DNA of 64,000 nucleotides, taken from NCBI RefSeq assembly GCF_900142465.1, contig NZ_FRAX01000007.1:62001-126000 (forward strand), written 5' to 3'. The first letter of the stretch is position 1, and every line of letters starts with the position of its first letter. Below the pieces are notes generated by a model that saw only the letters and a program-made list of their open reading frames with translations, was not told the origin of the DNA and searched no databases. The position numbers were made by a program, and so were the translations under genes. Origin of the DNA: Fibrobacter sp. UWH6. GTDB lineage: Bacteria; Fibrobacterota; Fibrobacteria; Fibrobacterales; Fibrobacteraceae. Positions 13,014 to 30,546 of this stretch are shown in pieces.

Positions 13014-16000
13014 ATGTGGAAAGTTAAAGGTTCTGTTCGATATTTCTTATCGATCCTTGCAACAGTTTTTGTTCAGACAGGTGTGTTTATTTACGCCCAG
13101 AAAATTCTTTCGGGTTCCTTTACGGCTGATGGAAGCGGACAGACCTGGCAGGCCTTTATGCTGCAGGTTTTCTTTATCGCCCCTTACATCTTGATGGTCT
13201 TTTTTGCGGGATTCTTTACCAACAGGTTCTCCAAGAATAAGGTGTTGGCATGGTCCTCGTTATTGATGACTTGCTTTGTCATTGCCCAGGCGGTGTTGGT
13301 GACTTGCGGCATCCCCCGTGTGGCGTTCTGGCTTTCTATTGGCCTTAGCAGTGGTTTTGCCATTCATAGTGCGGCAAAGTACGGCATCCTCAAGGAAATG
13401 TTTGGCGTTCGTAATCTGAGTTTCGCCAATGCCTTCCTGCAGATTTTCAGCTTGGGCGGCATGATATTCGCCTCCTGGCTTGCCATTGTCGGTGTGAACT
13501 TGATTAACCTGGATTCCCTGGTTTCTTACGAGGCCGTTCACCGCATTTTGTCCCATTCCGTGGTGATTCCCTGGATCTTGACGGGGGTTAGCGTACTTGG
13601 TACGATTGCCAGCTTTATGGTGCCTAGGGTAAAGTATGAAAATCCCAATGTGAACATCGCCAAGGTCCGTAAGCACTTGAGTCTGGGCTGGCGTGTTCCC
13701 TCCCTCCGTGGTTCCATCATCGCCCTTTCTATGTTCTGGGCTCTGGCCCAGGTGTTCGTGCTGGTTTTCCAGGACGCTTCCGGCTCTCAGATCCTGAACA
13801 TGATGCAGGATTACCTGGCATTTGCCGTGGTGGGTCTTGTGGTGGGTTCCATTGTGGCTGCCGCCAAGTCCAGGGATTTTATTGAAACCGGATTCATTCC
13901 CCTCGGTATGTTTGGCGTGTCCATCTGCATGTTCCTGGTCCCGTTCATGGTGAACCCCTTCGCCCTGGTGGTCCTTTATTCCTTGACGGGACTTTTTGGC
14001 GGCTTGTTCCTGGTGCCGGTCAACGCACTTCTACAGTATAACACTCGTCCCAACAATTCGGGCTCCGTTCTAGCCCTTTCCAATATGATCCAGTCCATTG
14101 TTTTGATTGGATTCCTGTTTGTTTTCTCTTACCTGGTCCGTTATACCGATATCCTGCCCCAGTACTACTTCCTCGGAATTGCAGTCATTTCTGCATGCGT
14201 GTTCCTCTGGTCCATTTCCAACTTGCCTCAGGCCATGATCCGCACGGTGTTGCGCCTGGTGTTTAACCGTTACAAGATTCGCGTGCTGGGTGTGCAGAAT
14301 ATTCCCAACGAAGGTCCGGTATTGCTGGTGGGTAATCACCATAGCTTTATTGACTGGGCCATGCTCCAGATGGCTAGCCCCCGTCCGCTGTGTATCGCCA
14401 GCAACAAGGACCATTTCGACAAGTGGTACCTGCGTTCTATTCTGAAGCGTCTGGGCAATATCCGCATCGACAACAATAATCCCAAGCCTGCCATGGATCG
14501 CATTCACGAGGCCCTGCTGGCTGGTAAGGCTGTGGTCATTTTCCCCACGGGCGAAGTGTCCAAGTCACCTCATGTGGACCCCTTCCATATCGATTACTCT
14601 TCTGCCATTGACGATACTGACGCCGAAATTATCCCGTTCTATATTCAGGGTCTGTGGGGGAGTAACTACAGTTATAGTTCCTCTAACATGTATGGCGCTT
14701 CTGCCGATCGTTCCGTGACGGTAGCCTTCGGCGAAAAGATTCCGGCCACCACACCTCCTAACGAAGTCCGCGCCATCGTCCGTAAGATTTCTATTGAAGC
14801 CTGGCGCTATTCCGTGAATTTCTTGCGTCCCATTGCCGCCTCCTGGATTCGTACCTGCAAGCGCTATGTGAAGAACGGACCTGCCATCTATAACCCGGAC
14901 GGAGGCCACTTTTCTGGCTACAAGCTGATGGGCGCCGTCATGGCGTTCCGCGGACTTCTGTGGAAGCTGTTGAATAAGAACGAGCAGAACGTGGGTATCA
15001 TGCTTCCGCCTAGTCCGGCTGGAGTCATTGTAAACCTGGCCCTGTGGGTCATGGGCAAGACCAACGTGAACCTGAACTACACCTCCTCTGTAGAAAACGT
15101 AAAGTTCTGCTGTGAAAAGGCTGATGTATCTACGGTCATAACCAGTAGACAGTTCATTCAGAAACTGAAGGGTAGGGGAAACGACTATAGCCAGATTGCA
15201 AGCGACAAGGTTCGACTGTTCTATGCCGAAGACCTGATGAAGATGCTGCCCAAGCCTAAAATTGCCGCCCTTGTACTGCTTTGCGTGGTAATGCCCAGCT
15301 GGCTAATCCGTCTGATTTTCTGCAAGCATCGTTCCATGAACGACAATGCGGTGATCGTGTTCAGTTCCGGTTCCGAAGGTACGCCTAAGGGCATCGAACT
15401 GACCCAGCGCAATCTGATGGGTAACATCCAGCAGCTGGCCTGTATTTTGAATGTGAGCCGCGGTGACGTGATGCTTTCGGAACTGCCCCTGTTCCACAGC
15501 TTCGGCCTGACGGTGACCACGATTCTGAACCTGGTGGAAGGTTGCCCCATTGTGACCGTGGCGGACCCCACCGACGTAAAGACCATGGCTCGCGTCTGCT
15601 GCGAATTCCACGTTTCGTTCCTGGTGGCGACCCCCACCTTCTTGCGCGCCTTTACTGTTAGCCGTTACGTGCACCCGCTGGTATTCAAGTCCGTGCGTCT
15701 GATTATTGCCGGTGCAGAAGCCCTGCGTCCGGAATTGGCAACCGCATTCCGCCTGAAGTTCGGCAAGGAAATCTTTGAAGGTTACGGCTGTACCGAAACC
15801 GCTCCGGTGGCCTCCGTGAATACGGAAAACACCTTGCTGAATGACTATACCACCATGCAGCTCAATAACAAGCCTGGCACCGTGGGTCCTGCTCTGCCGG
15901 GAACCCAGTTCCTGATTGTTGATCCCGAGACCAACGAACCGTTGCCTACCGGGGAAGCCGGTATGATCCTGATTGGTGGATGTCAGGTAATGAAGGGCTA

Positions 16001-16445
16001 CCTGAAGGATCCGGACCGCACTAAGGCCGCTATTGTCAACCTTGACGGAATTCGTTATTACCGCACAGGGGACAAGGGCTACCTGGATCAGGATGGTTTC
16101 TTGACTATCGTTGACCGTTATAGCCGTTTTGCCAAGCTGGGAGGCGAAATGATCAGCCTCGGAGCCGTCGAAAAGAAGATTCAGGACACTCCGGTCCTTG
16201 AAGGTTGCGATTATTTGATTACCACAGTTCCCGATGCAGCCAAGGGCGAAAAGATCGTTTTGCTTTACCAGGGCGAAAAGGAACCGAAAACCGTACTTAC
16301 GGAACTTCGCGCCAGCAATAACTTCCCGCCCATAATGTTACCTTCTGTAGCTTTCCAGGTAGAAAAGGTTCCTAAGCTTGGTACAGGTAAGGCCGACTTT
16401 ACTACAGCCAAGAAACTGGCCAAGGAACTGGTGGAAGCTAAATAG
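13014..16445 (+). CDS. Three-domain fusion: MFS transporter, PlsC acyltransferase, acyl-ACP/CoA ligase (Aas-like)
   Basis: 1143 residues; the ATG at 13014 has AGGAA upstream. About 1-405 is a 12-helix MFS domain, as in the lysophospholipid flippase LplT. About 410-620 is a PlsC acyltransferase with NHHSFID (His442, Asp447) and a FPTGE motif. About 630-1135 is an AMP-binding ligase with SSGSEGTPKG (about 782-791), GYGCTETAP and YYRTGDKGY. In E. coli, LplT and Aas are separate and re-acylate lysophosphatidylethanolamine at the inner membrane; the full fusion occurs in some other phyla. Heading this cluster, the ligase might instead load an acyl group onto the nearby acyl carrier protein. That role is inferred. 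Confidence 0.88.
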   Translation: MWKVKGSVRYFLSILATVFVQTGVFIYAQKILSGSFTADGSGQTWQAFMLQVFFIAPYILMVFFAGFFTNRFSKNKVLAWSSLLMTCFVIAQAVLVTCGIPRVAFWLSIGLSSGFAIHSAAKYGILKEMFGVRNLSFANAFLQIFSLGGMIFASWLAIVGVNLINLDSLVSYEAVHRILSHSVVIPWILTGVSVLGTIASFMVPRVKYENPNVNIAKVRKHLSLGWRVPSLRGSIIALSMFWALAQVFVLVFQDASGSQILNMMQDYLAFAVVGLVVGSIVAAAKSRDFIETGFIPLGMFGVSICMFLVPFMVNPFALVVLYSLTGLFGGLFLVPVNALLQYNTRPNNSGSVLALSNMIQSIVLIGFLFVFSYLVRYTDILPQYYFLGIAVISACVFLWSISNLPQAMIRTVLRLVFNRYKIRVLGVQNIPNEGPVLLVGNHHSFIDWAMLQMASPRPLCIASNKDHFDKWYLRSILKRLGNIRIDNNNPKPAMDRIHEALLAGKAVVIFPTGEVSKSPHVDPFHIDYSSAIDDTDAEIIPFYIQGLWGSNYSYSSSNMYGASADRSVTVAFGEKIPATTPPNEVRAIVRKISIEAWRYSVNFLRPIAASWIRTCKRYVKNGPAIYNPDGGHFSGYKLMGAVMAFRGLLWKLLNKNEQNVGIMLPPSPAGVIVNLALWVMGKTNVNLNYTSSVENVKFCCEKADVSTVITSRQFIQKLKGRGNDYSQIASDKVRLFYAEDLMKMLPKPKIAALVLLCVVMPSWLIRLIFCKHRSMNDNAVIVFSSGSEGTPKGIELTQRNLMGNIQQLACILNVSRGDVMLSELPLFHSFGLTVTTILNLVEGCPIVTVADPTDVKTMARVCCEFHVSFLVATPTFLRAFTVSRYVHPLVFKSVRLIIAGAEALRPELATAFRLKFGKEIFEGYGCTETAPVASVNTENTLLNDYTTMQLNNKPGTVGPALPGTQFLIVDPETNEPLPTGEAGMILIGGCQVMKGYLKDPDRTKAAIVNLDGIRYYRTGDKGYLDQDGFLTIVDRYSRFAKLGGEMISLGAVEKKIQDTPVLEGCDYLITTVPDAAKGEKIVLLYQGEKEPKTVLTELRASNNFPPIMLPSVAFQVEKVPKLGTGKADFTTAKKLAKELVEAK

Positions 16446-16461
16446 GGTAAAATGAGGACAA

Positions 16462-17358
16462 ATGAGTGAAAAGAAAGAGATAAACTACGGGTTGACCGCT
16501 GTAAGAACGGGGCGGTTGGTGGCCGCCGTAATCGCCTTTGCCGGCATGTTGATGCTGTTTATTCAGCGGGTTCTTGCAGCGGTTCTTGTTATGGCGAATG
16601 ATGCAGTGACTTTGGGTCTTGCACGCTATAATAATTTTACAGGGCGATTCGCCTCTAACAACTTTGCAGAAGACAAACAGCTTTTAGGTCTTCTGAAAGA
16701 AGTTCAGGATATTTTGCCTGCAGCAGATACGGCCCTGGCCATTTTGTTAGCCTTATCAATCGCCCTGTTGGCAATTGCCTTAATCGGTCTTGCCTTGCCG
16801 AGGCAATTTGTCCACATTCTGGTGGCCCTCAAGTTGCTAAAATGGGAAAATGGGGAAGGTGACGACGAAGGAGAAAGGGTTAACCCGCGACAAGTTCTCG
16901 AAACCATCGGCAACGTTCCCTTAAAAAAGTTAGCGTTTCCTGTTGCCATTATTATAACACTTATTATACTCTGTTTGGGAATTTCTACCTGTCATCAGCG
17001 AGTTATCTCCAATTCCGTTGAGGGAAATCTGGAAGATATGCAGCTGAAAGCCCTGGCCTATATCGATGCCCAGAAAGCCTATTTTGGCAAGAATAAGACT
17101 ATTGGAGGTCCGGCTGCCTTAAAAATGACAGATTCCCTGTCTACAGACGCATTTGACATGAAGGTAACTGCAACCCGTTTTAGTGCCGTATCTAAAATAC
17201 CCCTGGGAGAATGTCCGGCAGGGAGCCGTTGGCAGGTTGCGGCCAGCACAAAAGGTGTTTTTAACGTGGAATTATCCCTTTATCGAGGGGTTCCCAAGGA
17301 CACAAATTGTGTAAAATTGACTCCGGATTTCAAAAATTTAGGACGAAAATCACGCTAA
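16462..17358 (+). CDS. Membrane protein with periplasmic C-terminal domain (unknown)
   Basis: 298 residues, start preceded by AGGACAA. Three hydrophobic helices (about 18-45, 90-112, 158-176) are followed by a soluble domain of about 120 residues with two cysteines (in GECPAG and DTNCVK) that could form a disulfide if periplasmic. The segment IDAQKAYFGKNKTIGG resembles the start of type IV pilin-like globular domains, but no pilin signal is present. It lies 16 bases after the Aas-like fusion and is probably co-transcribed with it. No family recognised. Confidence 0.75.
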   Translation: MSEKKEINYGLTAVRTGRLVAAVIAFAGMLMLFIQRVLAAVLVMANDAVTLGLARYNNFTGRFASNNFAEDKQLLGLLKEVQDILPAADTALAILLALSIALLAIALIGLALPRQFVHILVALKLLKWENGEGDDEGERVNPRQVLETIGNVPLKKLAFPVAIIITLIILCLGISTCHQRVISNSVEGNLEDMQLKALAYIDAQKAYFGKNKTIGGPAALKMTDSLSTDAFDMKVTATRFSAVSKIPLGECPAGSRWQVAASTKGVFNVELSLYRGVPKDTNCVKLTPDFKNLGRKSR

Positions 17359-17446
17359 AATTCATTTTTTTCTTCATTCATACGCCAAAATGGCCCATTC
17401 ATGCACCTCGCAGCCTTTTTGGGGATTTTTTGAAGAAAGATTTTTG

Positions 17447-17454
17447 TATCTTTG
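17447..17454 (+). promoter_or_regulatory. TAnnTTTG promoter element before the acyl carrier protein
   Basis: TATCTTTG, 41 bases before the ACP start. It marks a probable second transcription start inside the lipid cluster. Confidence 0.6.
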
Positions 17455-17495
17455 TGCCAAAAAAAAATTAAACCATAAAAAAAGAGAGGATTAGC

Positions 17496-17738
17496 ATGGC
17501 TAATGAAGAAGTTAAGAGCAAGTTGAAGGCATTCTTTATGTCTGATCTGGGTGTGGATGGTGACGTTCTGAACTATGACACCCCGCTTTTCGGTGAAGAA
17601 ATCGGCCTGGATTCCGTCGACTCCCTGGAAATCATCTCCTTCGTTGACAGCACCTTTGGTGTTTCTATGACTGGCGTGGGTAAGGAACCCTTCCAGAGCA
17701 TAGATACCATTGCTGACTTTATTGAATCCCACAAGTAA
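17496..17738 (+). CDS. Acyl carrier protein
   Basis: 80 residues. The GLDSVDSLE motif places the phosphopantetheine attachment Ser at residue 40. The rest follows the four-helix ACP pattern, with acidic helices and an IDTIADFIESHK end. AGAGAGGA precedes the ATG. It carries the growing acyl chain for the ketosynthase, reductase and dehydratase encoded next. DSVD in place of the housekeeping DSLD, and the setting among these genes, point to a pathway-specific ACP rather than the primary AcpP. Confidence 0.93.
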   Translation: MANEEVKSKLKAFFMSDLGVDGDVLNYDTPLFGEEIGLDSVDSLEIISFVDSTFGVSMTGVGKEPFQSIDTIADFIESHK

Positions 17739-17766
17739 TTCAATCTGATTTTCGGATTTATCTTTT

Positions 17767-20163
17767 ATGACTTCTAATGACTGCCGCTGTGTCGTTACCG
17801 GTCTTGGCGTTATTTGTGCCATCGGTAACAATGTTGAAGAAACTTGGAAAAATGCCCTAAATTCTGTTTCGGGTATTCATAAGACCACCTCTGTAGATAC
17901 CAAGAACTGCTATGCAGATCTTGCCGCAGAAGTGAATTGCGACTCCCTGGATGCAATTGATGCTCCCGAAGAAAAGGATCGCGCCTCCAAACTTTGCATT
18001 AAGGCGGCAAATGAAGCTCTAAAAGATGCCAATCTCGGAAATTTTGGCGACGACCAGCGTGTCGCCGTGATCATCGGTAGCTGCGTGGGTGGTGTCATTA
18101 GCGTGGAACATTACCACCAGAATGGCCGCCCGGCTGCTGATATTCCCAAGATGCCCATCGCTTCCATCGCATCCCAGGTTGCTGAAACTTGTGGAGCTGG
18201 CGGCATCGTGACCAACGTGGCAAATGCATGTGCTGCAGGTACCATCTCTATCGCCCTGGCTTGCGACTTGATTCGTGCCGGTCGTGCCGACGTGGTGATC
18301 GCAGGTGGTGCAGATTCCTTTGCCGCAGTGCCTTATTCCGGCTTCCTTTCGCTCCACGCACTTGACGAAAACGGTTGCTCTCCCTTTAACCATTGTAATG
18401 GTATTACTCTGGGTGAAGGCGCCGGCATCGTAGTTGTGGAATCTTACGAACATGCCCAGAAGCGCGGTGCCAAGCAGTATTGCGAAGTGCTGGGTTCTGG
18501 CGTGACAAGTGACGCTCATCACATTACCGCCCCCCGTGAAGATGGCCTGTGCCTGACCGAAGCCATGAGTCGCGCTGTCAAGAATTCTGGTATCAAGAAG
18601 TCTGACATTGGCTATCTGAATGCCCATGGTACTGGTACCGGCAAGAATGATAATGCCGAAATCAACGCCTTTGGCAAGTTCTTTGCCGAAGAAAATCCCA
18701 CTATTAGTGTAAGTTCTACCAAGGTGATGACTGGTCATTGCCTGGGTGCCGCAGGTGCTATCGAAGCCGTCTTTAGCATCAAGGCTCTTACCACAAATAC
18801 CGTTCTTCCCACACTCCATTATACTGCCGAAGATTCTGAAGCCCTCAAGGCCAAGGTCGGTCAGATGGACTTTGTGCAGAACACCCCCAAGTCCAAGGAA
18901 CTGAACTGCGTTATGAGCAATAACGTGGCATTCGGTGGCACCAACGCAAGCATTGTCTTTAGTAAGATGGCTGGCGATGTAGTAAAGCAGCCGGCAAAGG
19001 GCAAGAAGATTGCCGTTACCGGTATCGGTATCGTAAGCCCCCTGGGTAATTCCAAGCAGGCTTACCTGGATGCTGTCAAGAACGATGCCAAGCCCGAAAG
19101 TGCCTCTGTCCATTCCACCATCACCAACGATGACTACAAGGAATTGGGAATCAAGATGGCATTCTACCGCAAGTTGGATAATCTGGGTCAACTCCAGACC
19201 GTTTCCGGCATGCGCGCTCTCCAGGACGCAAACTTCTCCGTTACCGATGACAATGCCAAGGACGTGGGCATTATCGTAGGTACCAGCGAAGGTGGCCTGG
19301 GTGCAACTTATGATTTTGAAGAATTGATTGCGGAACAGGGCAATGCCAACGGCAGTGCTTTCAAGTTCCCCCATACCGTTTACAATGCTGCAGGTGGTTA
19401 CCTTTCCATCTGCTCCGGCATCAAGGGCTACGGCGTGACCATTACGACGGGTCCTGTTTCTGGTCTCGATAGCATCGGATACTCCATGAGCGTTATTTAT
19501 GACGGTCAGGAAAGCGCCATGATGGCTACCGGTTCCGACGAAAACCTGCCCATTATTACTGAATTTGCCCAGAAGTTGAATGTGGCCGCCGATAAGGTCG
19601 TGGCTCCCTTCGACGACGCAGAAGGTTTCGTGGTTGGCGACGGTTCCGTTTCTATTATGATGGAAACTGAGGAATATGCCAAGGCTCGCGACGCCAAGGT
19701 TTACTGCTACGCCCTGGGTTACGGCAATGGCCGTAAGAACGTGAAGTTCGGTAAGGTTGCCGGTTCTGGCGAAGCTTTGGACAACGCCATTAACGATGCC
19801 CTTAAGGATGCTGGCCTCACTGTGGCTGACATTGACGCCGTTTGCGGTTTTGCCGACGGTTTCAAGACAGTGGATGACATTGAAAAGGAATCCCTGGCCC
19901 GCGTATTTGGCGATAAGCTGGAAACTCTTCCCCTGTTCGAAGTGAAGGAACGCGTTGGCGAAGGCCGTGCCGCTTCTGCCACTTTGGCTGCCGCCGAAGC
20001 CGCCCTGCTGCTTTCTGGCGAAATGGAAAGCGACAATGCCTACTTCGTGGCCAAGGACGGATCCGTTTCCAGGAAGAACGTTGACGCAGCTGGTCTTAAG
20101 AAGATTTTGGTGGTTGCCTTTGCTACAGGCGGTTCCTATAGCGCCGTAGTATTCGGTAAGTAA
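17767..20163 (+). CDS. Fused double beta-ketoacyl-ACP synthase (active KS plus inactive KS-like domain)
   Basis: 798 residues in two thiolase-fold halves. The first (1-405) is a complete KAS: Cys155 in ACAAGT, His287 in NAHGTGTG and His324 in GHCLGAAGA. The second (about 412-798) keeps the fold (VTGIGIVSPLGNS, ATGSDEN) but reads GPVSG, with Pro563 where Cys should be, GFADGF where the first His motif should be, and no third His. This is a ketosynthase/chain-length-factor arrangement in one chain. In type II polyketide and aryl-polyene systems, such pairs condense malonyl-ACP and set chain length. Product unknown. Confidence 0.92.
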   Translation: MTSNDCRCVVTGLGVICAIGNNVEETWKNALNSVSGIHKTTSVDTKNCYADLAAEVNCDSLDAIDAPEEKDRASKLCIKAANEALKDANLGNFGDDQRVAVIIGSCVGGVISVEHYHQNGRPAADIPKMPIASIASQVAETCGAGGIVTNVANACAAGTISIALACDLIRAGRADVVIAGGADSFAAVPYSGFLSLHALDENGCSPFNHCNGITLGEGAGIVVVESYEHAQKRGAKQYCEVLGSGVTSDAHHITAPREDGLCLTEAMSRAVKNSGIKKSDIGYLNAHGTGTGKNDNAEINAFGKFFAEENPTISVSSTKVMTGHCLGAAGAIEAVFSIKALTTNTVLPTLHYTAEDSEALKAKVGQMDFVQNTPKSKELNCVMSNNVAFGGTNASIVFSKMAGDVVKQPAKGKKIAVTGIGIVSPLGNSKQAYLDAVKNDAKPESASVHSTITNDDYKELGIKMAFYRKLDNLGQLQTVSGMRALQDANFSVTDDNAKDVGIIVGTSEGGLGATYDFEELIAEQGNANGSAFKFPHTVYNAAGGYLSICSGIKGYGVTITTGPVSGLDSIGYSMSVIYDGQESAMMATGSDENLPIITEFAQKLNVAADKVVAPFDDAEGFVVGDGSVSIMMETEEYAKARDAKVYCYALGYGNGRKNVKFGKVAGSGEALDNAINDALKDAGLTVADIDAVCGFADGFKTVDDIEKESLARVFGDKLETLPLFEVKERVGEGRAASATLAAAEAALLLSGEMESDNAYFVAKDGSVSRKNVDAAGLKKILVVAFATGGSYSAVVFGK

Positions 20164-20185
20164 TTTACTTGAGAAGGAGATATTG

Positions 20186-20917
20186 ATGAAGGTTGCGATT
20201 GTTACAGGTGCATCGAAAGGTATCGGTAAGGCTTGCGCCCTGCGCTTGGCCCGCGATGGTTTCACCGTTGTGGTGAACTACTCCAGTTCCGACGAAGCTG
20301 CTGCCGAAACCCTTGACTTGATCAAGGCCGAAGGTGGCGACGGCATGGTGTATAAGGCTAACGTTGCCGATCTGGCCCAGGTAAAGGCCATGGTCCGTGA
20401 TGTGTTTAAGGCTTATGGCCGCATCGATGTGCTTGTGAACAATGCCGGTATCGTCCGCGATCAGTACCTGCTTGAAATCAGCCAGGAAACCCTGGACAAG
20501 TGCTTCGACCTGAACGTGAAGGGCTACCTTTACTGCGCTCAGACTGTGGGCCTCAAGATGTTCAAGCAGAAGTCCGGCGTCATCATCAATATGTCTTCGG
20601 TCAGCTCCAAGTTCGCCTTGCCCGGCCAGAGCGTCTATAGTGCCACCAAGGGTGCAGTAAACTCCATGACCCAGACTCTTGCCAAGGAACTGGGTGGCTG
20701 GGGCATTCGCGTGAATGCCATTGCTCCGGGCTTTATCGCTACCGACATGATCGAGGCCATTCCCGAAGAAACCCGCGAAGGTTACCTCAAGAATATCCCC
20801 CTGAAGCGTTTTGGTACCCCCGAAGACGTGGCCAACATGGTTTCGGCTCTTGCTTCTGACCAGTTCTCCTATGTAACCGGCCAGGTATTTGTGCTGGATG
20901 GAGGTCTCTCTCTATGA
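20186..20917 (+). CDS. 3-oxoacyl-ACP reductase (FabG-like SDR)
   Basis: 243 residues. Start ATG 20186 has AAGGAGA five bases upstream; a TTG just before is in frame but less likely. TGASKGIG binds NADP(H), NNAG follows, and the catalytic residues Asn110, Ser138, Tyr151 and Lys155 sit at positions matching E. coli FabG. It reduces the 3-oxoacyl-ACP made by the ketosynthase. It overlaps the dehydratase gene by 4 bases, so it is tightly coupled to it. Confidence 0.93.
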   Translation: MKVAIVTGASKGIGKACALRLARDGFTVVVNYSSSDEAAAETLDLIKAEGGDGMVYKANVADLAQVKAMVRDVFKAYGRIDVLVNNAGIVRDQYLLEISQETLDKCFDLNVKGYLYCAQTVGLKMFKQKSGVIINMSSVSSKFALPGQSVYSATKGAVNSMTQTLAKELGGWGIRVNAIAPGFIATDMIEAIPEETREGYLKNIPLKRFGTPEDVANMVSALASDQFSYVTGQVFVLDGGLSL

Positions 20918-21366
20918 GTTCCATGAATATTTTTGAAATTAGCGAAAAGATCGCCCAGCGTCCGCCTTTCCAGATGATCGAGAAGGTGACGGAACTGGTT
21001 CCCAACGAATCTGCTGTGGGCATCAAGAACGTTAGCGTCAATGAACCCTACTTCATGGGTCATTTCCCGGGCACCCCCATTATGCCGGGTGTGCTTATTG
21101 TGGAATCCTGCGCTCAGCTCTGCTCCCTGGTGATTGAAAAAAAGCCCGAAGATCTGGATGACAAGCTGTATGTGTTGCTGAAGATTGACGGTTTCAAGTT
21201 CGTGAAGCCTGTGATTCCCGGCGACCAGCTTGAAATTGCCGTGAACAAGACCAAGGGTGGTGGCATTATTGTTGGCTTTGACTGTGTGGTCAAGGTAAAC
21301 GGAAATCTTCACGCCAAGGGCAGTCTTACCTTTACCACCATTCCCAAGGACTCCTTGGGTAAGTAG
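20914..21366 (+). CDS. FabZ-like 3-hydroxyacyl-ACP dehydratase
   Basis: 150 residues, hot-dog fold. FMGHFPGTPIMPGVLIVES carries the catalytic His and Glu of FabZ enzymes. GGAGG lies about 9 bases before the ATG. It would remove water from the 3-hydroxyacyl-ACP to give a trans-2-enoyl chain. No enoyl reductase follows, so double bonds could be kept and a polyene made. A second, housekeeping-type fabZ lies next to lpxC at 29562, which supports a pathway-specific role for this copy. Confidence 0.9.
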   Translation: MSSMNIFEISEKIAQRPPFQMIEKVTELVPNESAVGIKNVSVNEPYFMGHFPGTPIMPGVLIVESCAQLCSLVIEKKPEDLDDKLYVLLKIDGFKFVKPVIPGDQLEIAVNKTKGGGIIVGFDCVVKVNGNLHAKGSLTFTTIPKDSLGK

Positions 21367-21374
21367 GTCTGGAA

Positions 21375-22106
21375 TTGAAACGCATCCTAAAGTTGTTGGC
21401 GGAACCGTTTATGCAGCTTGCTGTATGGACGGTCATCTACTCGGTTCGAGCATACTTCTTTATTGTATTCCGCCCCAAGGTTACTTTTACCGATCCTTCG
21501 GTTCAATCTTATAAGTTCAAAGAACCGCGAATCATTATCGCGAACCATTGTTCTCCTTGCGACCCGATCATGCTCCTTTCACTGATTTTCAAGAACAGGA
21601 ACATCGTGGTGGCCAAGGACTGGTTCGAGATGAAGTGCTTCCACTGGATTTTGACCCGCGTCCATGTGATTCCCTGTGACCGCTACAATCTGGACACAGA
21701 ATGGGCCTTGATCGCCAAGAAAAACCTGGAAGCCGGTAAGTCCGTCATTATTTTCCCCGAAGGCAAGTGCCGCGAAGATGGCTTGATGAACGAATTCAAG
21801 TCGGGCTTTGCATTCCTGGCCCGCAGCACAGGCGTGCCTGTTGTGTGCGTCGGTCATGACGGTACTTATAAGCGTGGGCATCGCACTGCGCTGGTCTTTG
21901 GCGGAGAAGAAAAGATTGAACGTGTGAAGGGAATTCCTTCTTCCCAGCACCTGGCAGAACGCAGCGAATACTTCCGTCAGAAGGTCTGGAAGCTGAAGCA
22001 GCAGGCTCAGGGAAGGAACGTAAACGAAATCCTGCCGCCCCCCGAAGAAACGCCTGAAGAAGTGACAGCAGAAAATGCGGCTAAAAATGCAGAGGTGTCA
22101 AAGTGA
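21375..22106 (+). CDS. PlsC-type acyltransferase
   Basis: 243 residues using TTG at 21375 (AGGT a few bases upstream). A hydrophobic N-terminus is followed by ANHCSPCDP (the HX4D motif), then VHVIPCDR and IIFPEGKCREDG, the four conserved blocks of 1-acyl-glycerol-3-phosphate acyltransferases. It likely transfers the finished chain from ACP or CoA to a membrane lipid. The alanine/glutamate-rich end overlaps the next gene by 4 bases. The start codon is the least certain part. Confidence 0.87.
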   Translation: MKRILKLLAEPFMQLAVWTVIYSVRAYFFIVFRPKVTFTDPSVQSYKFKEPRIIIANHCSPCDPIMLLSLIFKNRNIVVAKDWFEMKCFHWILTRVHVIPCDRYNLDTEWALIAKKNLEAGKSVIIFPEGKCREDGLMNEFKSGFAFLARSTGVPVVCVGHDGTYKRGHRTALVFGGEEKIERVKGIPSSQHLAERSEYFRQKVWKLKQQAQGRNVNEILPPPEETPEEVTAENAAKNAEVSK

Positions 22107-22951
22107 AGTTCGGTCTTGTTCTAGAAGGCGGTTCCCGTCAGACTATGTTCAGCGCCGGTGTGCTTGACACCTGGATGGACGAAGGCATAGATTGCTTTTC
22201 TTACGTGGCTGGAGTTTCGGCCGGCGCCCACGCCGCTTTAAACTACATCACCCGCCAGCAGGGCCGTTTGCGCTTTATCATGCTGCCTACCCGTCTGCAG
22301 AATGGTCATAAGTGGGCTAACAAATATATTGGCATCCACAAGGAATACTACGCCTTGAATTACGATGCCGCCGACGGCAAGATGCCTCTGGATTTCGAAG
22401 CCTATTCCAATTCGAAAATCGAGTGCGAAATTGGCTTGACTTGCTGCGAAACCGGCCGTGCAGAATTCATGTCCGAAAAGAACGACAAGAAGCGCTTGCT
22501 GGATTTGATCAGTGCCAGCTGTGCCTTGCCTATGCTTTTCCCCATGGCGCCCATTGGCGATAAGCATTACGCCGACGGATGCATTACGGTGCCGGTTCCT
22601 TTTGAACGAGCCTTCGAAAAAGGTTGCGACAAGGTGGTGGCCCTTTCGACCCATTACCCTGGCGAGGCGGTAACGGATTTCCGCAAGTATCGTGCTGTGC
22701 TGAACCCGATGTATAAGCGCAAGTATCCCGACTTGTTCCGCGCCCTGATGGTTCGCCTGAAGCGTTACGACAGGATGTTCCTGGAAATGGAAAAGCTTGA
22801 AAAGCAGGGCAAGCTATTCCTGATTCGCCCCGAAATCGACTTGTGCGACCAGTTTGATTGCGACATGGGAAAGATGAACGAATCTTACGACCATGGTGTT
22901 GAATACGCCAAGCGCCGCATGGATGAGCTGAAAGCATTTTTACAAATCTGA
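22103..22951 (+). CDS. Patatin-like phospholipase
   Basis: 282 residues. GLVLEGGSRQ forms the oxyanion loop, GVSAG carries the nucleophile Ser, and YADGCITVPVP carries the Asp of the Ser-Asp dyad. The length and the second half (MYKRKYPDLFRALMVRLKRY) fit the YjjU branch. These enzymes hydrolyse acyl esters of lipids. Coupled by a 4-base overlap to the acyltransferase, it could trim, remodel or recycle the lipid made by the cluster. Confidence 0.88.
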   Translation: MKFGLVLEGGSRQTMFSAGVLDTWMDEGIDCFSYVAGVSAGAHAALNYITRQQGRLRFIMLPTRLQNGHKWANKYIGIHKEYYALNYDAADGKMPLDFEAYSNSKIECEIGLTCCETGRAEFMSEKNDKKRLLDLISASCALPMLFPMAPIGDKHYADGCITVPVPFERAFEKGCDKVVALSTHYPGEAVTDFRKYRAVLNPMYKRKYPDLFRALMVRLKRYDRMFLEMEKLEKQGKLFLIRPEIDLCDQFDCDMGKMNESYDHGVEYAKRRMDELKAFLQI

Positions 22952-23010
22952 TTGTGCAAAAAAGTTAGAAGTTTTAAATTCGCTACCTCATAAACATTAG
23001 GAATAGAAAA

Positions 23011-23763
23011 GTGTCCGATAAGAAGAAAGTGCTTGTAATGGTGGCTAGCCCCAAGAATGAACGGAGCGGAACCCTTATCCCCACCAATGCCTTTGTGGAA
23101 GGTATTCTGGAAGGTGGCGAATTTGAAAGTGAATACATCTATATCGACCGCATGAACATCAAGCCCTGCCGCGGTTGCCTCAGTTGCTGGGGCCGCCCCG
23201 ATGGCAGCTGCTTTATGAAGGACGATGATGTTCCCATGATCCGCAAGAAGTTGGAAGAGGCTGACATCGTCATCTGGAGTTTCCCCCTTTACCTGTTTGG
23301 GGTACCCGGCCAGATGAAGTGCCTGATGGACCGCATCGTAGGCATGGTCCACCCGTATATGGGCCAGCGACTCAACGAGCCCGGCGCCATGGACAGGCCC
23401 ATGCACGGTCTGCAGAACCAGAAGCCCGGCCAGAAGATCATCTTGCTTTCGAGCTGTGCCTGGTGCGATCTGGATGTTGTTTATGAACCCATCATCAAAC
23501 AGTTCAACATCATTCTGGGTGCTGATGGTTACACCCTGGTGGCTTGCCCTCAGATGCGCGCACTGCACCATCGTGGCGGCGAACGTCGCCTGAACATGCT
23601 TCGAGCCAAGTACAAGAAGGGCGGTCTGGAACTGGCAAAGACTGGTGCCCTTTCCAAGGAAACCATCGACTTGCTGCAAAAGCCCATGTTCAGTGAAGAA
23701 GTCTACAAGGAACTGGTGGTGCAGTTTGTGACCCACATGTTCGATCGCGACGACAACTTCTAG
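23011..23763 (+). CDS. NAD(P)H-dependent flavodoxin-fold oxidoreductase
   Basis: 250 residues starting at GTG 23011. It starts with strand KVLVMVASPKNERSGT, the FMN-phosphate loop of the NADPH-dependent FMN reductase family. CRGCLSCWGRPDGSCFMKDDD is the cysteine motif common in iron-sulfur-containing relatives, and FPLYLFGVPGQMKCLMDR matches the dimer region. It probably uses NAD(P)H and FMN to reduce a small substrate or quinone. It ends the cluster, 59 bases after the patatin gene and just before a terminator. Role in the lipid pathway unproven. Confidence 0.85.
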   Translation: MSDKKKVLVMVASPKNERSGTLIPTNAFVEGILEGGEFESEYIYIDRMNIKPCRGCLSCWGRPDGSCFMKDDDVPMIRKKLEEADIVIWSFPLYLFGVPGQMKCLMDRIVGMVHPYMGQRLNEPGAMDRPMHGLQNQKPGQKIILLSSCAWCDLDVVYEPIIKQFNIILGADGYTLVACPQMRALHHRGGERRLNMLRAKYKKGGLELAKTGALSKETIDLLQKPMFSEEVYKELVVQFVTHMFDRDDNF

Positions 23764-23791
23764 AAAAATTCCGCTTTATGAATCGTTCATG

Positions 23792-23817
23792 TCCCGCTTT
23801 AAAAGGCGGGATTTTTT
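23792..23817 (+). terminator. Terminator of the lipid cluster
   Basis: TCCCGC / GCGGGA stem extended by weak pairs, then six Ts. Confidence 0.8.
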
Positions 23818-23933
23818 ACACGGATTTAAACACAATTAGCGCTTGTCGCCCCGAGGTCCAGGCCCTTTTTTTAGTTAAGAATTTATATTCCAAAGTAGGC
23901 CAATTAGGGATGATTGGTTATTAAGGAGTGTTT

Positions 23934-28609: not shown

Positions 28610-29593
28610 ATGACGACCAATTCACAGCATTACGAATTTAAGTCTCCGTCGCTGAGCTACAAGAACGCCATGGTGACGGTGGACGTTCTGGAAAGGGATC
28701 CTACACACAAGCCCCGAGTGGTCTGGAGCGTAGATGGTAAGGAAGTCTACCGCACGGATCTTTGCAAGATTTTTTCTGACTTGAAGTTTGAAGCTGCCCG
28801 TACAGCCATCTACACCTACGACGACGAGGCTCGTGCCCATGCTGTCGGTTTGAACTGCGGTGCTATGGCCAGCCCGGAACATCTGGCTCCTGTTTTTCTG
28901 ATGTGGCCCCACCGCCGCTTTAACGTGAATATCGTGAGCGGAGCCGATGTGAATTGTGGAGCAGACGGCAAGTCCGCCGCGAAGGTTGCAGAACTTCCCT
29001 TGATGGATGGTTCTGCTGCACCGTTTTTCTATGGCCTGCGCCGAGCTGCGGGGGAGCCTGAAGAACTTGTTTTTTACGATGCCCCGGTAAACGCTAACTG
29101 GGATTTGAAAACGTCGGGTGATAATCCGCGAACCTATGGCCATGTACGTATCATGCCTGCAGAAACTTTCGAGGTGGAGTACGTTCTGGACCGCAGTGTG
29201 GCCCGCGGTGACACCTGCGACTTGCAGTCGGCCGCATCGGTTAGCCTTTATTCTCCAGAGAACCTGTTTCAGATTTTTATGGCCCGCACGTTTATTTCTC
29301 AGTTAGAACTTGACGCTGCGCGGTCCAACGGTCTATTAAAAGGCGTAGATGAAAGCTGCGGACTTCTTTTAGACGCAAAAGCCTCCGCAGGATGCCCCTG
29401 CAACGAAAATTTCCGTGTCGCCAATGAACCTGCCATGCATAAAATACTAGATTTAATTGGCGATATAACATTCATTTGTCCTGCACTCCCCAAGGTGCGG
29501 ATTGAAATCACCAACGGTGGGCACGTTTCTCACCGACAAATCATGGAGAAGTTAATACCTTATGTCTCTGCTGGACTCTTTGAAAAAATCTGA
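28610..29593 (+). CDS. lpxC: UDP-3-O-acyl-N-acetylglucosamine deacetylase (divergent LpxC)
   Basis: 327 residues. It catalyses the committed step of lipid A synthesis. Sequence identity to textbook LpxC looks low, but all key residues are present: Glu90-His91 (SPEHL), ARTF, His277-Lys278 with Asp281 and Asp285 (HKILDLIGD) and His305 (GGHVSH). ATG 28610 is chosen as start; a TTG four codons upstream lies inside the promoter element. No Shine-Dalgarno site is visible. It overlaps fabZ by 32 bases. In Bacteroidota the two are often fused; here they are separate but coupled. Confidence 0.9.
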   Translation: MTTNSQHYEFKSPSLSYKNAMVTVDVLERDPTHKPRVVWSVDGKEVYRTDLCKIFSDLKFEAARTAIYTYDDEARAHAVGLNCGAMASPEHLAPVFLMWPHRRFNVNIVSGADVNCGADGKSAAKVAELPLMDGSAAPFFYGLRRAAGEPEELVFYDAPVNANWDLKTSGDNPRTYGHVRIMPAETFEVEYVLDRSVARGDTCDLQSAASVSLYSPENLFQIFMARTFISQLELDAARSNGLLKGVDESCGLLLDAKASAGCPCNENFRVANEPAMHKILDLIGDITFICPALPKVRIEITNGGHVSHRQIMEKLIPYVSAGLFEKI

Positions 29594-30065
29594 TAAAGAA
29601 GGCGTTCTCTACGGCGAAGATGTTTGCCACGAAGTTCTTCCCCAGAAGTTCCCCTTTGCTTTCGTTGACGAAATCCTGGAATTGAACATGGGTGATGGCA
29701 CTGCAGAAAATCCCCCTTCTCTGGTGGGCCGTATGCACGTTACTGGCGAACAGGACTTCTTCAAGGGCCATTTCCCCGGCAATCCGGTGATGCCCGGCGT
29801 GATCCAGATTGAATCCATGGCTCAGGCAGCAACTCTCCTGACCATGATCGCAATGGAAGATAAGACTGTTGGCAAGCGCCCCGCCTTCATGGGTGTGGAA
29901 AACTGCCGCTTCCGCAAGGCTGTGATTCCTCCTACCGATATCATCCTGAAGGTCCGTCTCACTGACCTCCGCATGGCTCGTCGCGGCATCTTCAAGTATG
30001 CCGGTCAGGTGTTCATCGGCGAAGACCTGGTGACCGAAGCAGAATTTTCTGCAGCTATGGTTTAA
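29562..30065 (+). CDS. fabZ: 3-hydroxyacyl-ACP dehydratase FabZ
   Basis: 167 residues, slightly longer than typical. GHFPGNPVMPGVIQIESMAQAA holds the catalytic His and Glu. HEVLPQKFPFAFVDEI and PAFMGVENCRFRKAVIPP match the rest of the family. It supplies unsaturated acyl-ACP for fatty acid synthesis, and its gene's overlap with lpxC fits the known balance between phospholipid and lipid A synthesis. GGAG lies upstream inside lpxC. Confidence 0.94.
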   Translation: MSLLDSLKKSDKEGVLYGEDVCHEVLPQKFPFAFVDEILELNMGDGTAENPPSLVGRMHVTGEQDFFKGHFPGNPVMPGVIQIESMAQAATLLTMIAMEDKTVGKRPAFMGVENCRFRKAVIPPTDIILKVRLTDLRMARRGIFKYAGQVFIGEDLVTEAEFSAAMV

Positions 30066-30255: not shown

Positions 30256-30546
30256 ATGGAGAAACATAGCTACACATATATACTTTTTAGTCAACGAAAT
30301 GGGACACTATATATTGGTGTTACTAATGATCTGAAACGCAGAGTTTCCGAACACAAAAGCAAGGCAATTCCTGGTTTTACGCAGAAATATGGAGTTGATA
30401 AGCTTGGATATTTCGAAGTGTATAATGATATCCGCTTTGCTATAGAACGGGAAAAAGTGTTGAAAGGGTGGAGAAGGGTGCGCAAGATAGAATTGCTGGA
30501 AAGCATGAATCCAACATGGAGGGATTTGTATTTTAATTTGTTCTAA
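30256..30546 (+). CDS. GIY-YIG nuclease-domain protein
   Basis: 96 residues. YTYILFSQRNGTLYIGVTNDLKRR holds the GIY-YIG signature (here YIL/YIG), the catalytic Tyr and Arg, then the His of VSEHK and the Glu of FAIEREK. This is the small UPF0213-like single-domain type, common as many chromosomal copies. It may cut branched or damaged DNA; the cellular role is unknown. A near-consensus promoter TATCTTCG lies just before the ATG, with no Shine-Dalgarno site. Low-G+C codons contrast with its neighbours, suggesting recent arrival. Confidence 0.88.
   Translation: MEKHSYTYILFSQRNGTLYIGVTNDLKRRVSEHKSKAIPGFTQKYGVDKLGYFEVYNDIRFAIEREKVLKGWRRVRKIELLESMNPTWRDLYFNLF

Follow-up and report, generated by a model that had tools for sequence, protein, structure and literature searches.

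The window analysed here is a 64,000-nt stretch of contig NZ_FRAX01000007.1 from Fibrobacter sp. UWH6 (genome 3.92 Mb, 99.99% complete). Seven genes at 17496–23763 of this window make up an inserted cassette; the genes on either side of it are direct neighbours in relatives. They encode an acyl carrier protein (ACP), a fused ketosynthase (KS) and chain length factor (CLF), a FabG-type reductase, a FabZ-type dehydratase, a PlsC-type acyltransferase, a patatin-like lipase, and a flavin mononucleotide (FMN) reductase, referred to below as the flavoprotein. A sequence-only reading of this DNA had described a cluster of nine genes on one strand, the further two being a ligase and a 298-aa membrane protein that precede the ACP. 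Domain searches of the window proteins show that all nine are present and lie on the plus strand, and the reported 4-base overlaps are real, joining FabG to FabZ (20914–20917) and PlsC to patatin (22103–22106).

The nine genes do not, however, constitute one unit. In close relatives that lack the cluster (G091, G093, and G095), the genes for the ligase and the 298-aa protein are contiguous with the one starting at 23928, and equally so in G098, G103, G105, and G063, whose cluster sits elsewhere. Across such relatives the ligase and 298-aa genes are adjacent, mostly also beside the 23928 gene, and the ligase is found in 80/80 genus members. In the window, the block 17496–23763 separates the 298-aa gene from the one at 23928. 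Because the flanking genes meet at an empty site in relatives, the unit comprises the seven genes from the ACP to the FMN reductase (Table 1). Both the ligase and the 298-aa protein also occur without the cluster, which together with the empty site excludes them as members; they are ancestral neighbours of the cassette. No transposase gene separates the cassette from the genes that flank it; the junction sequences were read, but not searched specifically for repeats. A 377-aa outer-membrane-like protein without a Pfam match, which many relatives encode upstream of the cluster (for example, L250:5004), was considered as an obligate partner and rejected, because homologues occur in 28/28 genomes tested, fusion-negative ones included.

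Table 1. Cassette genes and neighbouring features in the 64-kb window.
Feature	Position	Strand	Basis or remark
ACP, first cassette gene	17496..17738	+	PF00550, E 2.4e-6
KS-CLF fusion, 798 aa	17767..20163	+	Pfam; KS half residues 1 to ~410, CLF-like half ~412–798
FabG-type 3-oxoacyl-ACP reductase (short-chain dehydrogenase/reductase)	20183..20917	+	Domain matches; S...YxxxK motif
FabZ-type 3-hydroxyacyl-ACP dehydratase	20914..21366	+	PF07977; NF000582 above its cut-off
PlsC-type acyltransferase	21375..22106	+	PF01553; NHxxxxD and FPEG motifs
Patatin-like lipase with DUF6363	22103..22951	+	PF01734, PF19890; GVSAG and DG motifs
Flavodoxin-fold FMN reductase, last cassette gene	23011..23763	+	PF02525/PF03358; CxGCxxCW...C motif
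Terminator-like hairpin, directly 3′ of the FMN reductase gene	23791..23812	+	Pattern match only; such sites are no commoner than in shuffles
LplT-PlsC-AMP-ligase (Aas-type) fusion, neighbour outside cassette	12999/13014..16445	+	NF006386, 1096 bits, below the cut-off of 1221
298-aa membrane protein, neighbour outside cassette	16462..17358	+	No Pfam or NCBIfam match
Second fabZ, outside cassette	29562–30065		

The synthase of the cassette is the KS-CLF protein, which comprises two ketosynthase folds. Its KS half maintains the residues C155, H287, K319, and H324 (C-H-K-H) in all 16 clusters compared, while in 16/16 clusters the CLF half has lost the cysteine (replaced by P, A, I, V, or N) and both histidines (the second replaced by Glu). 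Both halves are nearest to FabF in sequence, and the fusion scores 265 bits against FabF compared with 158 bits against the ishigamide KS and 146 bits against the actinorhodin KS. By these comparisons the protein appears to be a FabF-derived KS-CLF rather than a member of the actinobacterial type II polyketide synthase (PKS) lineage. In phylogenetic trees the KS halves form one supported clade and the CLF halves another, and their branching largely matches, which suggests a single old fusion.

A structure model of the fusion as a single chain, built from a 19-row alignment, has a mean predicted local confidence (pLDDT) of 87.7 and a predicted template modelling score (pTM) of 0.92. Among solved structures, only the KS-CLF of PfaC (PDB 6riw; TM-score 0.80 on the query, 18% identity) matches it over its full length, and the two halves are predicted to pack as a fused KS-CLF pair in a similar manner. 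This model replaces an earlier one from 13 rows, mostly close relatives, which had a pLDDT of 68.7 and structural matches to the KS half only. PfaC, from the polyunsaturated fatty acid (PUFA) synthases, likewise joins KS and CLF in one chain; in Pfa systems, however, acyltransferase domains and ACPs in tandem belong to giant multidomain polypeptides, whereas the cassette encodes separate small single-domain proteins around its fusion and is not a PfaABC(D) synthase. The ishigamide (Iga11-Iga12, 6kxd) and actinorhodin (1tqy) systems share a Cys-His-His KS paired with a CLF lacking these residues, as well as a separate ACP, ketoreductase (KR), and dehydratase (DH), but their KS and CLF are separate chains and, by sequence, the cassette fusion lies nearer to FabF. 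Genus g8 of the family encodes another KS-CLF fusion, distant at 28% identity (L070:4399–9958), accompanied by ACP, FabZ, FabG, and an aminomethyltransferase-like protein. In other classes of the phylum (L063, L066, and L073), separate KS and CLF genes lie near FabG and FabZ, and also near phytoene-desaturase-like FAD oxidoreductases or B12-radical-SAM proteins, which recalls gene sets proposed for ladderane lipids.

The phosphopantetheine attachment motif of the ACP (DSVD/DSID) is present in all 18 loci compared, which span three phyla, the S...YxxxK motif of FabG is conserved in all loci compared, and the His and Glu of FabZ (GHFP..P.MPG...E) in most. With the motifs of PlsC and patatin and the cysteines of the flavoprotein included, active-site motifs are intact at almost every locus where the gene in question is present. 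The ratio of non-synonymous to synonymous substitution rates (dN/dS) between the window and G090 is 0.01–0.07 for all seven genes, which are therefore under strong purifying selection. In almost all relatives whose loci were read, the genes follow the order ACP-KSCLF-FabG-FabZ, as the sequence-only reading requires, with PlsC and patatin next in most. A patatin orthologue, in some genomes unlinked to the cluster, occurs in 18/18 fusion-positive and 0/14 fusion-negative genomes. Among Fibrobacter genomes, 52/52 fusion-positive ones carry the flavoprotein, as do two of the 28 fusion-negative ones, both incomplete (Fisher p 5e-19, a value that ignores descent). All six genomes of the sister genus carry it as well; there, every copy whose genomic context was inspected is located apart from the cluster. 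On the ligase tree the fusion state changes ~10 times, some of these changes probably being due to incomplete genomes.

No canonical enoyl reductase is encoded in the cassette (the rest of the genome was not searched for one). A flat absence of an enoyl reductase, as claimed from the sequence, is nevertheless not safe, because the co-inherited flavoprotein is distantly related to a flavin ene-reductase: of the bacterial proteins with solved structures, it matches best the flavone reductase FLR (PDB 7d38–7d3b), itself a flavoprotein, although the similarity is weak and covers about 70–80 residues only. All flavoprotein copies compared carry CxGCxxCW...C, and FLR has a related C.GC..C region; iron-sulfur flavoproteins bind a 4Fe-4S cluster through a compact cysteine motif. 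Given the kinship to an ene-reductase, it is possible that the flavoprotein reduces the chain partly or fully.

The cassette is distinct from housekeeping fatty acid synthesis. Three other FabF genes (contigs C16, C11, and C19) and a FabD gene (C13) are found in the genome, and the second fabZ of the window, rightly noted before, lies next to the gene for a short protein of 96 aa with a GIY-YIG domain (30256–30546). Taken singly, the cassette genes resemble fabF, fabG, fabZ, acpP, and plsC, and could pass for ordinary housekeeping fatty acid synthesis. With FabF, FabD, and FabZ available elsewhere, though, they are not the only fab genes of the genome, and the fusion is absent from 28/80 genus members, a distribution that refutes the housekeeping assignment and leaves it with next to no credence. 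The analysis supports a dedicated acyl-chain cluster apart from ordinary fatty acid synthesis, with a KS-CLF and a plausible route to a lipid. The reported lack of a malonyl transferase holds at the window locus but not for the family at large, since many relatives carry a second FabD beside the cluster; in the succinogenes-like group this FabD (43% identical to the housekeeping FabD) and a carboxyltransferase are encoded divergently upstream.

Aryl polyene clusters share a KS-CLF, FabG, a dehydratase, an ACP, and a lipid context with the cassette, and the same four proteins would be expected of a stripped-down aryl-polyene or flexirubin cluster. No aromatic ammonia lyase, in agreement with the earlier description, and no aryl starter gene lies within 17.5–23.8 kb, nor does the cassette contain an MMPL exporter, LolA, or an ApeI/ApeP-type dehydratase; its dehydratase matches PF07977 only in Pfam, and the score against the SDR reductase model FlxB of flexirubin clusters (228 bits) falls short of the cut-off (340). 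An aryl-polyene-type cluster does exist separately in the genome (G000 contig C4, ~140–152 kb; L061:3760–14866), where an ammonia lyase, a thioesterase-like protein, LolA, an MMPL-type protein, an ApeP-like dehydratase, FabG, and two KS are encoded. Descent of the cassette from either pathway by loss of genes is very improbable.

Within the genus Fibrobacter the fusion occurs in 52/80 genomes, and in 6/6 of the sister genus; elsewhere in the phylum, identity drops across a gap to about 40% or less. A scan of 84,980 genomes revealed full-length fusions in metagenome-assembled genomes (MAGs) of Treponema (76% identical), Ruminococcus (54%), and Lachnospiraceae (51%). Wider sampling found the fusion in 21/274 genomes of the family of the Treponema MAG, 9/298 of that of the Ruminococcus MAG, and 8/397 of that of the Lachnospiraceae MAGs. 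The copies from the scan lie with ACP, FabG, FabZ, and the flavoprotein, most of them also with PlsC and some with patatin, in changed gene order. Neighbourhoods of the Ruminococcus group retain the same core, with PlsX or a phosphopantetheinyl transferase in places. Since ACP-KSCLF-FabG-FabZ recurs in this order in four bacterial families from three phyla, the grouping is far beyond chance, and since the copies are divergent (51–76% identical to that of the window) and come from many genomes, contamination is unlikely. That the full-length fusion accompanies the same partner genes in Treponema, Ruminococcus, and Lachnospiraceae implies that the cassette has been transferred between phyla. In a midpoint-rooted tree, the Fibrobacter and Treponema copies nest inside those of Bacillota; with the root placed in this way, the direction of transfer can be read only tentatively. 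Where record titles tell, the non-Fibrobacter carriers are from herbivore gut samples. A GH9 cellulase, taken as a marker of fibre degradation, is encoded in 4/8 carrier genomes, an even split. In one Treponema cluster an amine-oxidase/phytoene-desaturase-like FAD enzyme directly follows PlsC (L243:15177–16703) and may modify the chain. A 3.1-kb contig labelled Bacteroidales with an 83% KS-CLF match (L247) is probably a mis-binned Fibrobacter contig.

We consider it rather probable that the cassette is a dedicated acyl-chain synthase, horizontally spread, that feeds a glycerolipid. In the proposed scheme, the ACP of the cassette would carry the growing chain while KS-CLF condenses malonyl units, with the inactive CLF half setting the chain length. 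FabG would reduce and FabZ dehydrate in each round, so double bonds would stay unless reduced, giving a polyene or a partly unsaturated chain. The FMN reductase could reduce selected double bonds or supply electrons. PlsC would then transfer the finished chain from the ACP to a lyso-lipid, and the patatin lipase may make the lyso acceptor or remove the chain. A glycerolipid is the likely destination in view of PlsC itself and of the PlsX, FabD, carboxyltransferase, and phosphopantetheinyl transferase genes that relatives carry beside the cluster. Several observations weigh against this assignment. The sequence gives neither chain length nor saturation; the flavoprotein matches FLR at an E value of 9e-6 (6e-5 for the Ruminococcus copy); and when its co-inheritance with the fusion is corrected for descent, 5/5 informative pairs agree but p = 0.0625. 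PlsC and patatin are also not part of every cluster: no patatin was seen at the loci of the Lachnospiraceae or of the L304–L307 type, and L302 and L303 showed no PlsC, although L303 starts close to the cluster.

An alternative is a complete type II fatty acid synthase, the second of the genome, in which the flavoprotein acts as the enoyl reductase and the CLF fixes one chain length, yielding a plain saturated or mono-unsaturated fatty acid for phospholipid under certain growth conditions. KS, KR, DH, flavoprotein, ACP, and PlsC would make a full set, to which relatives add FabD, a carboxyltransferase, and PlsX; both halves of the fusion are FabF-like, and an ene-reductase is the best bacterial solved match of the flavoprotein. 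Ordinary fatty acids, though, need no chain length factor, housekeeping FabF and FabD are already present, and the fusion is missing from nine genus members with a completeness of 95% or more, so the cassette is dispensable. We regard a second synthase of this type as unlikely.

Polyenes such as those of the aryl-polyene and ishigamide synthases are made by KS-CLF, KR, and DH in the absence of a canonical enoyl reductase, and this is the set-up of the cassette. The product might accordingly be a polyene that serves as pigment or antibiotic and is either free or held loosely, released as an acid by patatin and with PlsC only decorating it, and this could be the unassigned yellow pigment of rumen cellulose degraders. 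Celluxanthenes (cex), whose clusters occur in cellulolytic clostridia, would likewise be candidate polyenes of cellulose-degrading anaerobes; they are the yellow affinity substance of C. thermocellum and are made by an iterative type I PKS (PMC12144888). The cassette contains none, which excludes celluxanthene as its product. R. flavefaciens is known for its yellow pigment, yet strain DSM 25089 lacks the celluxanthene genes (PMC12144888, PMC8865330), and a Ruminococcus MAG carries the cassette. That link, however, rests on the MAG and not on R. flavefaciens itself, no exporter or tailoring gene is found in the cassette, and patatin is missing from several clusters. A free polyene therefore seems decidedly unlikely.

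Returning to the dedicated glycerolipid synthase, the occurrence of the same gene set in three unrelated herbivore-gut groups points to a lipid or pigment not yet identified. No paper describing this cluster turned up in the literature library searched, and the main text of the F. succinogenes S85 genome paper makes no mention of ketoacyl or polyketide genes. As a tentative and on balance doubtful proposal, the cassette may make an undescribed polyene or unusual glycerophospholipid common to herbivore-gut Fibrobacter, Treponema, and Ruminococcaceae/Lachnospiraceae, and possibly the yellow pigment of those rumen cellulose degraders that have no celluxanthene genes.

The cassette is a newly delimited and widely transferred variant among KS-CLF systems: a compact, bounded set in which a single synthase with its ACP is joined by one each of reductase, dehydratase, and flavoprotein and by two lipid enzymes, common to gut anaerobes of three phyla. 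Cultured carriers exist, including F. intestinalis ATCC 43854, which makes the product accessible. If the product proves to be a polyene lipid, it would represent an overlooked membrane or pigment trait shared by gut fibre degraders, and a new KS-CLF chemotype.

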